Positions 9,592 through 17,145 of a stretch of DNA of 57,272 nucleotides are shown here, in pieces. Made by a program: the position numbers and the translations under genes. Within the stretch, counting starts at the first letter, position 1. Every line of letters begins with the position of its first letter. The stretch is taken from contig CACSIL010000012.1 of the NCBI GenBank assembly GCA_902705825.1, positions 203,567 through 260,838 on the forward strand, in the 5' to 3' direction. Below the pieces are notes generated by a model. It did not search any database and was not told the origin of the DNA. It saw only the letters and a program-made list of their open reading frames with translations. The DNA comes from Halioglobus japonicus. GTDB lineage: Bacteria; Pseudomonadota; Gammaproteobacteria; Pseudomonadales; Halieaceae.

Positions 9592-9619
9592 TTGACTTAT
9601 ACCCAACAAGCGATAGAAT
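9592..9619 (+). promoter_or_regulatory. Sigma70-like promoter of the riboswitch-1 operon
   Basis: TTGACT at 9592-9597 and TAGAAT at 9614-9619 are separated by 16 bases. The predicted transcript starts just before the cobalamin riboswitch at 9629. Confidence 0.7.
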
Positions 9620-9628
9620 CCCGCTCTG

Positions 9629-9866
9629 CATCAGGTGCCTGCTAGCGCCCCCCTTCGCCGGGGAGTGTTGGAGCAGGTTAAACGGGAAGTTTGGTGCGTC
9701 GATGGCCGGAGATGAACTCTTCGCAATGGCTGCCATCGACCAATCCAACGCTGCCCCGCAACGGTGAATGAGTGCATACCTGCCCTCACAAGCCCGGAAC
9801 CGGCCTGATGGTGAATATTATTTATTCGCCACCTATGCATGCTCAAACGATGAAGCGGAGGGCTTC
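9629..9866 (+). ncRNA. Cobalamin riboswitch 1
   Basis: The closing stem pairs CATCAGG (9629-9635) with CCTGATG (9804-9810). Inside are the hallmark elements GGTGCC, a GGGAAG segment, the B12-box core GCTGCCCCGCAACGGTGA around 9752-9769 and AGCCCGGAACCGGCCTG. The 3' hairpin GAAGC-GGAGG-GCTTC (tail GATGAAGCGGAGGGCTTC, 9849-9866) completes the usual proteobacterial architecture. When coenzyme B12 or a related corrinoid binds, expression downstream is expected to fall. It precedes a decayed TonB receptor gene and the CobN-like operon. There is an extended 9810-9845 region before the tail, longer than in riboswitches 2 and 3. Confidence 0.95.
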
Positions 9867-9946
9867 GCGTTGGCTTAACTACCACGCCAAAATCGCAACC
9901 ATTGTCGGTTGCTCCTCCCCCATACGTTTGCGTTTGATATCTGCAT

Positions 9947-14900: not shown

Positions 14901-16386
14901 CGGTCTGGATATGCTCGGGCTGGAACCGGTGTGGAACAGCCGCGGACTCGTCAAGGGGTTACATAAGAGAGCGCTGGCACAGGGCGAGGTGCGGCGCGAC
15001 GTGGTATTCACCACCTCCGGCTTGTTCCGCGATCTGTATGGCAGCCAACTGGTGCTGCTCGATCAAGCGGTATTAATGGCCCTGAATGCCAGTGCCATCA
15101 CCATCCAACGCGACTATCCCGCACTGACTCTGGCACTGCAGCAGACACTGAAACCGCTGCGCGATGCCGAAGACGACAGTGACCTGCAATATGCAGAGGA
15201 AAGCCTCGCAAGTAACCAGGTCGCAGCTCACTGGGTGAAACAGGCGCAGACACTGCTCGCACAGGGTCACAGCGATGCTGAGGCCGGAGTACTGTCCAGC
15301 ATGCGCGTATTCGGCGACGCTCCCGGCAGCTATGGCGCCGGCGTCAACCGCCTCGTGGAACGCTCTGGTGCATGGCAACGCAGAGAAGAACTGGCAGCCG
15401 TCTACATGCGCCGTCTGGGACACAGTTACGGCCGCGACGCCGACAATGGGGGTGGCTTCGGAGCACCTGCACTGGCCGCATTCCGAGCCAATCTCAAGGA
15501 CGTTGAAAACACCTACTTTGGCCGCTCCAGCAACCTCTATGGGCTGATCGACAACAACGATGCCTTTGATTACCTGGGCGGCTTGAGCCTCGCCGTGGAA
15601 ACACTAACAGGCCAGGTACCCAACAATTTTGTGCTCAACCACGCCAACCCGGAAAAAATCACGACTGAGCCACTGGCTGTCGCTCTACGGCAGGAGCTGC
15701 GCGGGCGCTATCTCAATCCCGAATGGCTGCAGGGCCTGATGCAACACGGTTATGCCGGGGCGCGCACCATGGGCACGGAATTTCTGGAGTATCTGTGGGG
15801 ATGGCAGGTGACCAACCCGACACTGGTGGGCGACTGGGCCTGGCAGGAAGTCAAGGAAGTCTATATGGACGACCGCTATCAACTGGGGCTGGATGAATTT
15901 CTTGAGCAAGGCCATAACGCACACGTGAAGGCCAATATGCTGGCGATTATGTTAGTCGCCATCTACAAAGACTTCTGGCATGCCGACGCTGCCACAACAG
16001 CGCAACTGGCCGCCGAATTTACCGAGCTGGTAACGGTCAACGGCCTGCCCGGCAGCGGCCATACCACGCCCGATCACCCAATGCTGCCATGGCTTGAAGA
16101 ACACCTCTCCCCCGAAGATTGGACTGCGCTGCAACAGGTGATTGAAAGCGCAACGAGTACCCCACAAGAGGAACCTCAAGAGGTGCATCGAATGACAGAG
16201 ATCGAGTTGCTATCGACAGAGACAGAGAACACGCCAGACGCTGACAATGGCCAGCAAGCAACTGATGCTGCCACAGACAGCGGCGAAGCTATGCCGTGGC
16301 GCTGGTGGTTACTGGCGGGGCTGGGGCTGGTTGTCAGCGCGGGGTTCTATCGCGCGGTTCGCCAATCCAAAGGAGCGAACGCATGA
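11929..16386 (+). CDS. Exported, membrane-anchored CobN/HmuS-like chelatase-family protein
   Basis: A 1485-residue member of the CobN/magnesium-chelatase H subunit family. Family blocks visible are HLGRHSTYEFLPRR (H704, H708; CobN normally has HxGxHGxxEWLPGK), DIPGVYPYIVDGVGEGIQAKRR near 730-750, and the C-terminal GAGVN, GRSSNLYGL, HGYAGARTM and VKANML stretches. Unlike cobaltochelatase CobN it has an N-terminal signal sequence (GPITLLVLIVYLLLGVPLAA) and a C-terminal helix (WRWWLLAGLGLVVSAGFY, about 1457-1474), so the body should face the periplasm. This topology recalls HmuS of Bacteroidota haem loci. The cobaltochelatase partners CobS/CobT-AAA are absent. ATG at 11929 overlaps the upstream stop; ATG at 11989 would give a shorter leader. 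Confidence 0.88.
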   Translation: MSNRATAPMPPHSNATRETTMARITSIQGPITLLVLIVYLLLGVPLAAQTVNGGTPLHNGKPQLLVLTSQRNAETIADAARLFTDQYPEYHVTARSETQLWEMAPQQIQALLDGADLVLGIGLFGASVAELEPHLSTTTTPLLIMNSDHRLIRLSQLPDRDVFSDDAQIGHIAGIQPSHDFDQQLDELMAQYPRQKDWISARRYWQAGGSSNTANLFAWSVGFLGEKIEVPPAQPQPRLRWLYHNQITTDLPAIAGDKPLLVVLDHAGGDRPADSALLRELCQRAATHHQFQCLIGLAYWGEAGVAAAQALHTIKDRLSGIVMLQDFVIGGGEGRETVTEALTTLNVPVLKAIKMRDRTAQERQLSSDGLAHDKVYYQIAMPEMQGASQPLVIAAAGTETDDPLTGIRIQPITGLSAGMDSLLSRMARWQRLQTIPNSDKRIAIIYYNHPPGRHNIGADNLDVPASLWQILTQLTAAGYDTGELPASQEALLDMMQARGVNLPNDAGALATMSPLIQHMATEDYQQWFNTLPLTVQREMVDGPFGLLHEQLKTALAAGKPELANDALHHTTEEMLHLLEGVDHPGRERALALLEQLEQCYHQTLEKIGQPCWDEALTLISALQQTGIEGLGGWGEAPGSVMTYKGEILLPGLRFGNIFVGPQPPRGWEINEELLHANLAFPPPHQYLAFYHYLRDEFAADAFVHLGRHSTYEFLPRRSVGLAEDDYSQIIASDIPGVYPYIVDGVGEGIQAKRRGLAVMVDHLTPPLEHTPLYDDLLQLRQLIESFEASHGSDNEALSNRLVAQIRDKVDALELKDELAQAMSAELAVMGISFDEVDDDMLVHEVGHYLTDLQERFMPLGLHVFGRNWNDDAVAMMLTSMAPQNDEEHIAWQQLLEQSPALEMAALLRGLDGGFIVPGPGNDPIRSPGSLPTGRNFYALDNSLIPSPVAWELGREMAADARANNPQNPEKREALVLWASDVVRDEGVMIAFGLDMLGLEPVWNSRGLVKGLHKRALAQGEVRRDVVFTTSGLFRDLYGSQLVLLDQAVLMALNASAITIQRDYPALTLALQQTLKPLRDAEDDSDLQYAEESLASNQVAAHWVKQAQTLLAQGHSDAEAGVLSSMRVFGDAPGSYGAGVNRLVERSGAWQRREELAAVYMRRLGHSYGRDADNGGGFGAPALAAFRANLKDVENTYFGRSSNLYGLIDNNDAFDYLGGLSLAVETLTGQVPNNFVLNHANPEKITTEPLAVALRQELRGRYLNPEWLQGLMQHGYAGARTMGTEFLEYLWGWQVTNPTLVGDWAWQEVKEVYMDDRYQLGLDEFLEQGHNAHVKANMLAIMLVAIYKDFWHADAATTAQLAAEFTELVTVNGLPGSGHTTPDHPMLPWLEEHLSPEDWTALQQVIESATSTPQEEPQEVHRMTEIELLSTETENTPDADNGQQATDAATDSGEAMPWRWWLLAGLGLVVSAGFYRAVRQSKGANA

Positions 16387-16838
16387 TCATTCATGGATTT
16401 GCGCTGGGCATTTTGCATCAGGTGGTCGGCTGGCTGCTGTACCCGGTGCTTGCCGGTCTCGGTGTAGCCCTGCTGTTGACCCTGTGGGAGCTCGGGACAG
16501 CCCTTGCCGAGCGCAGCGTGACACTGGCGCGGTTTCGTCGGGGGGCGGACCTTGCACACTTTGAACGGTATGCACAACGACGGCTGGAGCGAGCCGACCT
16601 ACTGGCCCGCAGTGGACCAATTCTTGGCCTGATGGGGACGCTGATACCGCTGGGACCGGGGCTCTCGGCGCTGGGCACCGGCAATATCGAAATCCTCGCC
16701 ACCGCCCTGACCGTCGCTTTCGATACGACTGTCATCGGCCTGCTGGTCGGGCTGATAGCCTATTTGATCGGACGCGTGCGGCGACGCTGGTACGAAATTA
16801 CGTGGCAGGCGATAGAGGTGCAAGCCAATGAGCGCTAA
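16383..16838 (+). CDS. MotA/TolQ/ExbB-family proton-channel protein
   Basis: A 151-residue inner-membrane protein, short for ExbB. It has a first helix at about residues 10-30, a charged cytosolic stretch (RFRRGADLAHFERYAQRR), the family motif SGPILGLMGTLIPLGPGLSALG at about 75-96 and a last helix (ATALTVAFDTTVIGLLVGLIAYLIG) where a Thr/Asp-containing face lines the channel in relatives. It starts inside the CobN-like stop (ATGA overlap). I preferred 16383 to longer in-frame starts inside the upstream gene. It pairs with the DUF2149 protein that follows, probably as an ion-driven energiser. Confidence 0.88.
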   Translation: MIIHGFALGILHQVVGWLLYPVLAGLGVALLLTLWELGTALAERSVTLARFRRGADLAHFERYAQRRLERADLLARSGPILGLMGTLIPLGPGLSALGTGNIEILATALTVAFDTTVIGLLVGLIAYLIGRVRRRWYEITWQAIEVQANER

Positions 16839-17145
16839 AAGGCCCCCCTGGGAACAGGGTCCGTTCAGCGAGCCCGATACCGACCCGCTCTCCGGCTTTG
16901 CCAATATCATGGATGTGATGCTGGTGTTCGCGCTCGGCCTGCTGATCACGCTGATCGCCCAGAGCCAGGAACTGCGCATTCACTTCCAACTGCAAGATAC
17001 CGTCGATATCCGCCAGGGACGAGAGCTGGCAGAGCCCCCCGAATCACTGGAGCAACAGCTGCGCGATGGCGGGGACGGTATGGAATCGCTGGGGCAGGTC
17101 TACCGCGACCCGAAAACCGGGAAATTGATTCTGATCGATCGATAA
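16828..17145 (+). CDS. DUF2149 protein, ExbD-like partner
   Basis: A 105-residue protein with one membrane helix (about residues 27-44, NIMDVMLVFALGLLITLI) just after the DPLSGFANIMD motif, and a short periplasmic tail ending GQVYRDPKTGKLILID, both typical of DUF2149. The topology (short cytosolic N-terminus, one helix with an aspartate at its start, periplasmic C-terminus) is that of ExbD/TolR/MotB stators. It overlaps the ExbB-like gene by 11 bases. DUF2149 genes are known next to CobN-like and ExbB-like genes in methanogens and bacteria. The following 17146-17377 has no gene or visible terminator. Confidence 0.88.
   Translation: MSAKRPPWEQGPFSEPDTDPLSGFANIMDVMLVFALGLLITLIAQSQELRIHFQLQDTVDIRQGRELAEPPESLEQQLRDGGDGMESLGQVYRDPKTGKLILIDR

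Follow-up and report, generated by a model that had tools for sequence, protein, structure and literature searches.

A CobN-like gene in a 57,272-nucleotide stretch of Halioglobus japonicus DNA (contig CACSIL010000012.1, positions 203,567 to 260,838; this whole stretch is called the window, and its own numbering is used below) encodes a predicted exported and membrane-anchored protein that lies outside the classical cobaltochelatase subunit CobN and apart from the haem-processing protein HmuS, in a clade of predicted exported relatives whose genes mostly stand behind a cobalamin riboswitch. We propose that it is a BtuS-type periplasmic chelatase that would set the metal of scavenged corrinoids, most likely by inserting cobalt, with the adjacent ExbB-like and DUF2149 proteins as an ion-driven motor; we put the probability of this reading at roughly 35%. 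The operon comprises the following elements.

9616-9822, forward strand: cobalamin riboswitch aptamer (RF00174, 63.3 bits, gathering score 31.5, E = 2.3e-13)
10415-11932, forward strand: PepSY_TM inner-membrane protein, 505 residues (PF03929, 67.6 bits)
11929-16386, forward strand: CobN/HmuS-family (BtuS-type) protein, 1485 residues, predicted exported (PF02514, 816.8 bits)
16383-16838, forward strand: MotA/TolQ/ExbB-family channel, 151 residues from the ATG at 16383 (PF01618, 34.9 bits, from a scan begun at 16371, i.e. with four extra residues)
16828-17145, forward strand: DUF2149 protein, 105 residues, one membrane helix (PF09919, 44.5 bits)

An earlier note on this DNA had described four tightly overlapping genes headed by a B12 riboswitch; the covariance and profile matches agree with it, and the coordinates of the open reading frames give successive overlaps of 4, 4 and 11 bases.

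Export and anchoring of the CobN-like protein are predicted from hydropathy: 19-residue maxima reach 2.43 around residue 30 and 1.39 around residue 1459, whereas no end segment of six CobN/BchH rows rises above 1.18. Among the relatives (cited below by their L numbers), L048, L059 and L077 show low values at the C-terminus, and L045 does so at the N-terminus. Structure comparison with Foldseek and VIA-align supports a class I chelatase fold. The best solved sequence matches are nearly tied (HmuS 337 bits, CobN 336 bits), and the NCBIfam CobN models match the protein, every one of them under its cut-off. In the host draft genome (5.05 Mb, 93% complete) this is the sole PF02514 gene found, and the cobaltochelatase partners CobT and CobS (AAA+) gave no match there (ChlI/ChlD-type partners were not searched).

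Two trees were built, one from 43 of 91 aligned rows and the other from 38 of 100, hand-picked for spread, with L019 and L082 omitted. In both, the clade of the window protein, including the plasmid-borne L087, forms a single branch with a Shimodaira-Hasegawa-like approximate likelihood ratio test (SH-aLRT) support of 100. Five classical CobN rows form a clade of their own (SH-aLRT 100) with the window protein outside it, and the second tree separates every predicted exported row, those of HmuS type included, from CobN plus BchH with a support of 98; the inner order of the remaining exported rows is unsure owing to long branches. The clade spans Gamma- and Betaproteobacteria, Nitrospirota and Nitrospinota, and is mainly proteobacterial. 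Placement within classical CobN combined with a cytosolic CobST elsewhere in the genome was looked for and did not occur, so that two statements of the earlier note, that the protein is not cytosolic CobN and that it lacks CobS/CobT-type partners, hold. By its sequence the protein would count as BtuS-type in the broad sense: it is a PF02514 member, is predicted to be exported and anchored, stands apart from CobN and ChlH/BchH, and has ExbB-like and DUF2149 genes adjacent.

The predicted pocket of the window protein contains His708, Glu747, Asn1210 and Asp1211. Residue counts were made on 79 rows, omitting L019 and L082 for their broken frames, and in all 79 the positions of HmuS His538, Glu577 and Ser1067 are kept. 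The position of HmuS His1209 is Asp in every row, as it is in four of five classical CobN rows; judged from the alignment, the bis-His pair of HmuS is replaced in the clade by a CobN-like His/Asp pair. The HmuS motif LSLDHxxEFMGG, which contains His1209, gives way in the window protein to DNNDAFDYLGG, and this motif and GRHS form the clade signature. At haem site 1 of HmuS, His254 is matched in 0/79 rows and Met79 in 2/79 (Leu in the window protein), in a head domain that aligns poorly and on which two alignments disagree. A further stretch, GxPGSGHT at residues 1372-1379, is invariant in 28 aligned rows and stands N-terminal to the linker that leads into the C-terminal helix; it is a candidate ion-channel contact or metal ligand.

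Gene neighbourhoods were compared in 80 loci, the best of 169 confirmed relatives and thus skewed toward close kin, with neighbour-gene profiles built from the 80 loci themselves. ExbB-like and DUF2149 genes lie 3' of the CobN-like gene within 1.6 kb in all 80. Riboswitches were counted with a covariance model, R1, built from ten switches (three from the window and seven from L007, L017, L023, L036 and L057), and matches in the window and in those five loci arise by construction. R1 was adopted because a strict-pattern scan (48 of 81 stretches), since discarded, missed known switches, including the first of the window. On the same strand as the CobN-like gene, a cobalamin riboswitch lies less than 900 bases upstream in 56/80 loci and 2-8 kb upstream in another 19 (counted by strand and distance). 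No upstream switch was found in five loci, three of which have less than 2 kb of contig upstream. These counts include weak matches in L018 (E = 0.019) and L044 (E = 0.023), and E values between 3e-5 and 8e-4 in L013, L014, L015, L022, L037 and L074. Nine of the 80 loci were searched with Rfam, giving a same-strand upstream switch in seven; L012 had none and L015 had one on the opposite strand only.

An even sample across the class found PF02514 in 16 of 114 genomes, and the type was examined for that of the window and three others. These three members, fetched by their PF02514 match alone, all fall in the clade and all have a same-strand upstream switch. A comparison within single cells is also available, as at least 8 of 50 host genomes carry a second PF02514 gene among the matches listed. 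Six second copies from six hosts were examined: each has a TonB receptor as neighbour, ExbB and DUF2149 accompany five of them (neither was found in the stretch of L104), and none has a cobalamin riboswitch (Rfam; R1 at E 0.1). For the clade copies of these six hosts, Rfam gives an upstream switch on the same strand in four (L017, L034, L045 and L057), and those of L012 and L015 have only weaker R1 hits upstream. Genome G131 carries both a riboswitch-type copy (L034) and an HmuS-type copy (L107) bearing the LSLDHVYEFMGG motif.

These data bear on the view that the protein is an HmuS-like haem dechelatase lying near B12 genes by chance. HmuS is its best solved sequence match, tied with CobN; we nevertheless regard this view as very unlikely, given that, in an uncertain head alignment, the His254 equivalent is present in no row and Met79 in two, and given the uniform change of His1209 to Asp, the cobalamin riboswitch upstream, and the separate copy with the HmuS motif in G131. 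The suggestion of the earlier note that a corrinoid is a likelier substrate than haem is strengthened by the riboswitch in most of the 80 relatives and by the Asp for His1209 replacement. The part that it gave to the PepSY protein was not supported as a general one, as PepSY adjoins the CobN-like gene in only 2/80 relatives besides the window; ten further loci have a PepSY gene, but next to a TonB receptor.

Further B12 gene families occur in part of the loci (two or more in 30/80, one in 9, none in 41), and some loci are transport operons with TonB receptors and BtuFCD. Three plasmids extend the picture. The clade member L087, on a Marinobacter plasmid, lies between CbiA and CobO. A Trichlorobacter plasmid (L088) carries two tandem cobalamin riboswitches followed by a receptor, DUF2162, ExbB, DUF2149 and a CobN-like gene; this gene belongs to a different family branch, so that the module is found under B12 control outside the clade described here. 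On a Runella plasmid (L092), a TonB receptor, a urease-accessory-like protein, ExbB, DUF2149 and a CobN-like gene lie between hypF and hypC, and this may be a form of the module that serves nickel. Because related modules occur in hmu (in Bacteroides), hydrogenase, zinc-regulated and riboswitch settings, the exported chelatase and its ExbB pair seem to form a general unit, the cargo of which is hinted at by the regulator.

The B12 pathway content of the hosts bears on the direction of the reaction. CbiC is a corrin-ring enzyme common to both known routes of B12 synthesis, and CbiD is a marker of the early-cobalt route. Of the 50 host genomes, four of them of known completeness, 42 gave no CbiC match, that of the window included. 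Neither CbiC nor CbiD gave a match in the window's host (other ring enzymes were not searched), which encodes a B12-dependent methionine synthase. Seven of the eight CbiC-bearing hosts also have CbiD; the eighth, an Azotobacter genome, carries a second full-length PF02514 gene, which is taken for classical CobN, and another strain of that species has cobN annotated on a plasmid. The clade gene is the only PF02514 member in 42/50 hosts among the matches listed, and CobT matches above cut-off occur in 8/50, mostly weak. In the hosts where CbiC was not found, the clade protein can hardly be a de novo cobaltochelatase, and hosts without ring synthesis can use cobalt for B12 only if the corrin comes from outside. 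A CbiA-like amidase match is present in 40/50 hosts (28 above cut-off) and in 32 of the 42 without CbiC (24 above cut-off), which suggests salvage of immature corrins.

These results leave scarcely any room for a late-step cobaltochelatase of the aerobic pathway. Membership in PF02514 and the matches to NCBIfam CobN models, all under their cut-offs, would fit such an enzyme, but hydropathy predicts export, the trees place the protein outside CobN, the host has no CbiC match, and 7/8 CbiC hosts have CbiD (CbiK/CbiX were not searched). Cobalt acquisition, in which a cobalt chelate would be imported and its metal freed for de novo B12 synthesis, we consider quite improbable: related modules do resemble metal-chelate systems, and PMC7689651 predicts a TonB receptor behind a cobalamin riboswitch elsewhere to be cobalt-specific, but most hosts, the window's among them, lack a CbiC match. 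A third alternative is an HmuS-like reverse reaction, stripping cobalt or a wrong metal from periplasmic corrinoids. The characterised relative HmuS works in this direction (PMC12583661), and the related modules in haem, zinc-regulated and hydrogenase settings suggest metal release; yet the distribution of CbiC, the loss of the bis-His pair, and a window host whose genome gave no further match to CobN, CobS or CobT by which freed cobalt could be used make stripping rather improbable. Where the earlier note had named removal and insertion together, genome logic thus disfavours removal, and insertion is the direction that we propose.

The rest of the window is consistent with corrinoid salvage. 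All three cobalamin riboswitches found in the genome fall inside it (whole-genome search, in which 150 of 257 first-look candidates were scored); the second and third, identified with Rfam, are as follows.

21876-22039, forward strand: second cobalamin riboswitch, leading a BtuB-like receptor at 22142-23998
35589-35761, reverse strand: third cobalamin riboswitch, leading a salvage operon with CobQ, a CbiZ-like protein, BtuC, CobU, CbiB, CobD and BtuF

CobO and BluB are situated between the BtuB-like receptor and the salvage operon. Profile scores fall under the model cut-offs for the receptor, for BtuF and BtuC and for the CbiZ-like protein, and BtuD, CobT, CobC and CobS of the salvage operon were named from the sequence only. 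With this content, the window looks like a corrinoid-salvage island.

Between the first riboswitch and the PepSY gene lie the remains of a broken receptor gene, its middle portion gone, which the earlier note had overlooked (10051-10409).

10051-10287, forward strand: remnant, exported N-terminus, probably of a TonB-dependent receptor, with a stop after 78 residues
10278-10409, forward strand: remnant, C-terminal barrel end of a TonB-dependent receptor, in a different frame

Across 37 residues the second piece shares 70% identity with the last part of the receptor in L045 (E = 4e-14), a locus whose gene order is riboswitch, intact receptor, PepSY. The first piece has no relative among the fetched stretches and is assigned to a receptor because its neighbour is receptor-like. 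The operon is likely to have formerly carried its own TonB receptor, since the remnant matches the L045 receptor in a like position.

The partner proteins are the basis of the motor idea. Asp29 of DUF2149 is present in 80/80 aligned rows (the window and 79 loci; L080 was omitted for length, and its sequence shows the same motif). The predicted model has a single membrane helix at 27-45, and we take Asp29 to be placed as in ExbD. The Runella row, a distant relative, has Glu at this position. L087 has neither ExbB/DUF2149 adjacent nor the C-terminal helix, which we count in favour of a coupling between them. Class I chelatases are known as ATP-driven cytosolic machines, HmuS being a recent exported exception; in the proposal, the ion-motive force of ExbB-DUF2149 would stand in for the AAA+ ATPases of CobN and ChlH. 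That the ion channel may drive the chelatase, and not the receptor alone, is our own idea; one paper assigns the ExbB pair to the TonB receptor and another leaves its effect on HmuS open.

The strongest rival to the chelatase proposal is energised transfer without chemistry: a receiver driven by proton-motive force that would collect corrinoids at the outer-membrane receptor and deliver them to BtuF or to the inner membrane, in the slot of TonB. The invariable presence of ExbB and DUF2149, the lack of a TonB gene in the window operon, and the position of the gene within some transport operons with TonB receptors and BtuFCD all fit such a carrier, and ordinary cobalamin as its substrate would explain the spread among hosts without CbiC. 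Against this, the chelatase pocket positions (those of His538, Glu577 and Ser1067) are kept in all 79 rows and would be needless in a mere carrier. We consider pure transfer possible but doubtful.

The periplasmic chelatase that we propose would work as follows. The switch, which is in place ahead of the operon, would turn it on when adenosylcobalamin is scarce. A TonB receptor would then import corrinoids, and in the window the BtuB-like receptor at 22142-23998 would serve because the operon's own receptor is a remnant. The corrin is predicted to bind in the CobN-like pocket near His708 and Asp1211. Switch control, receptor uptake and pocket binding, taken jointly, seem to us rather probable. 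ExbB-DUF2149 would pass protons and so move the chelatase via its C-terminal helix. Cobalt would be inserted into metal-free or wrongly metallated corrins; this is the step to which we commit, tentatively, and insertion would be the productive direction for a cell that lacks another chelatase. BtuFCD would finally import the product, which the CbiZ-like protein, CobQ, CbiB and CobU/S/T of the window would finish. More speculative still is the full statement of a proton-driven cobaltochelatase outside the cytoplasm, with which B12 auxotrophs would re-metallate or correct scavenged corrins, whether immature or carrying the wrong metal, in the periplasm before import by BtuFCD, an ExbB-DUF2149 stator replacing the AAA+ motor. 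If true, the proposal would reveal a so far unassigned step in B12 salvage and a tetrapyrrole enzyme driven by an ion motor, in a wide clade that its riboswitch links to B12 and that occurs mainly in hosts where the corrin-ring marker was not found.

Several points weigh against this proposal. HmuS is to our knowledge the only family member with a demonstrated reaction, and metal-free corrins are not, as far as we know, a common nutrient; neither a periplasmic cobalt source nor a chaperone was identified. HmuS removes metal, requires no ATP and is active when purified (PMC12583661). On structure, Foldseek places HmuS above CobN and VIA-align gives CobN the higher Z. The DUF2149 model is of low confidence with no solved-structure match, and a search of the PDB with the DUF2149 profile did not recover ExbD. 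The C-terminal helix is retained in L090 and L104, although no ExbB/DUF2149 was found in their stretches, and the coupling of helix to partners is therefore not strict. L087 has Asp instead of Asn at the 1208 position and no cobalamin riboswitch within its 16 kb stretch. The host genome gave no CbiA match, and two of the four hosts of known completeness do have CbiC.

The leader region contains further elements.

9592-9619, forward strand: sigma-70-like promoter match (10/12 positions), directly 5' of the riboswitch
9849-9866, forward strand: hairpin GAAGC-GGAGG-GCTTC, 3' of the aptamer, first copy
9947-9964, forward strand: the same hairpin, second copy, the starts being 98 bases apart
22037-22054, forward strand: GGAGG-loop hairpin 3' of the second riboswitch (1 mismatch)
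35575-35592, reverse strand: GGAGG-loop hairpin 3' of the third riboswitch (2 mismatches)

The promoter is suggested by position, as promoter-type matches in the region number 4 against 3.6 expected in shuffles. The 18-base hairpin element, also absent from the earlier note, has 4 matches at two mismatches or fewer against 0.01 expected and is supported by folding; it trails all three riboswitches of the window and is duplicated only behind the first. The same hairpin lies 3' of the riboswitch in L010 and L011 (2/23 loci tested). It is likely, we assume, to be P13/L13 of the expression platform, and would presumably fit the kissing-loop platform of the cobalamin riboswitch class. Downstream of the module, 17378-21833 holds a four-gene operon, three of whose products are DUF3348, a ZorA/MotA-like protein of 795 residues and an OmpA/MotB-like protein; this second unit of ion-motor type occurs behind the module in L010 too.

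Of known systems, the hmuYRSTUV operon of Bacteroidota (PMC12583661, PDB 9d26) is like the window in the fold, N-terminal segment and C-terminal anchor of HmuS, in its ExbB-like HmuU and DUF2149 protein HmuV, and in a TonB receptor within the operon (in the window, a remnant); the HmuS-like setting named by the earlier note is supported by comparison with the related modules. The window differs in having no HmuY, PepSY in place of HmuT, Asp for His1209, a cobalamin riboswitch and a separate clade. HmuV is described as strongly ExbD-like in PMC10100974, and the DUF2149 protein is said to have no known homology in PMC13227078. The former also places hmu-like operons of Bacteroides fragilis behind a cobalamin riboswitch, and its authors suggest cobalamin metabolism; this gene group resembles that of the window, in another phylum, a likeness drawn from the description only. 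Aerobic cobaltochelatase CobN (PDB 7c6o, 9uk9, 9fpc) shares the fold and the His/Asp pair of the pocket, but is cytosolic, CobST-dependent and a member of ring synthesis. In Pseudomonas aeruginosa, PA1922-PA1925 likewise set a TonB receptor and CobN-like, ExbB/D-type and DUF2149 proteins side by side, but belong to the zinc-regulated Zur regulon; they are likened to the window by gene content only, as given in PMC9431628.

Closest in concept is BtuS, the third CobN type, of which BtuS1 and BtuS2 are predicted to be periplasmic and membrane-anchored in PMC6460266, where the proposal is credited to Rodionov et al. 2003. Literature searches, which did not cover most subscription papers, turned up no publication on the proteobacterial clade or on a motor for a chelatase. 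The general idea is already in print; what is added here is the clade with the signature of its active site, together with the counts of riboswitches, the hosts in which CbiC was not found and the comparison within single cells, with which the 2003 prediction, as relayed in PMC6460266, becomes directly testable in culturable strains. As described there, the BtuS family (B. fragilis BtuS1/BtuS2) is like the clade in being membrane-anchored, periplasmic and CobN-like, distinct from CobN and ChlH, and predicted to act in salvage; the B. fragilis proteins have been studied for haem iron, whereas the clade, compared with them by description only, is mainly proteobacterial, riboswitch-linked and marked by GRHS and DNNDAFDYLGG.

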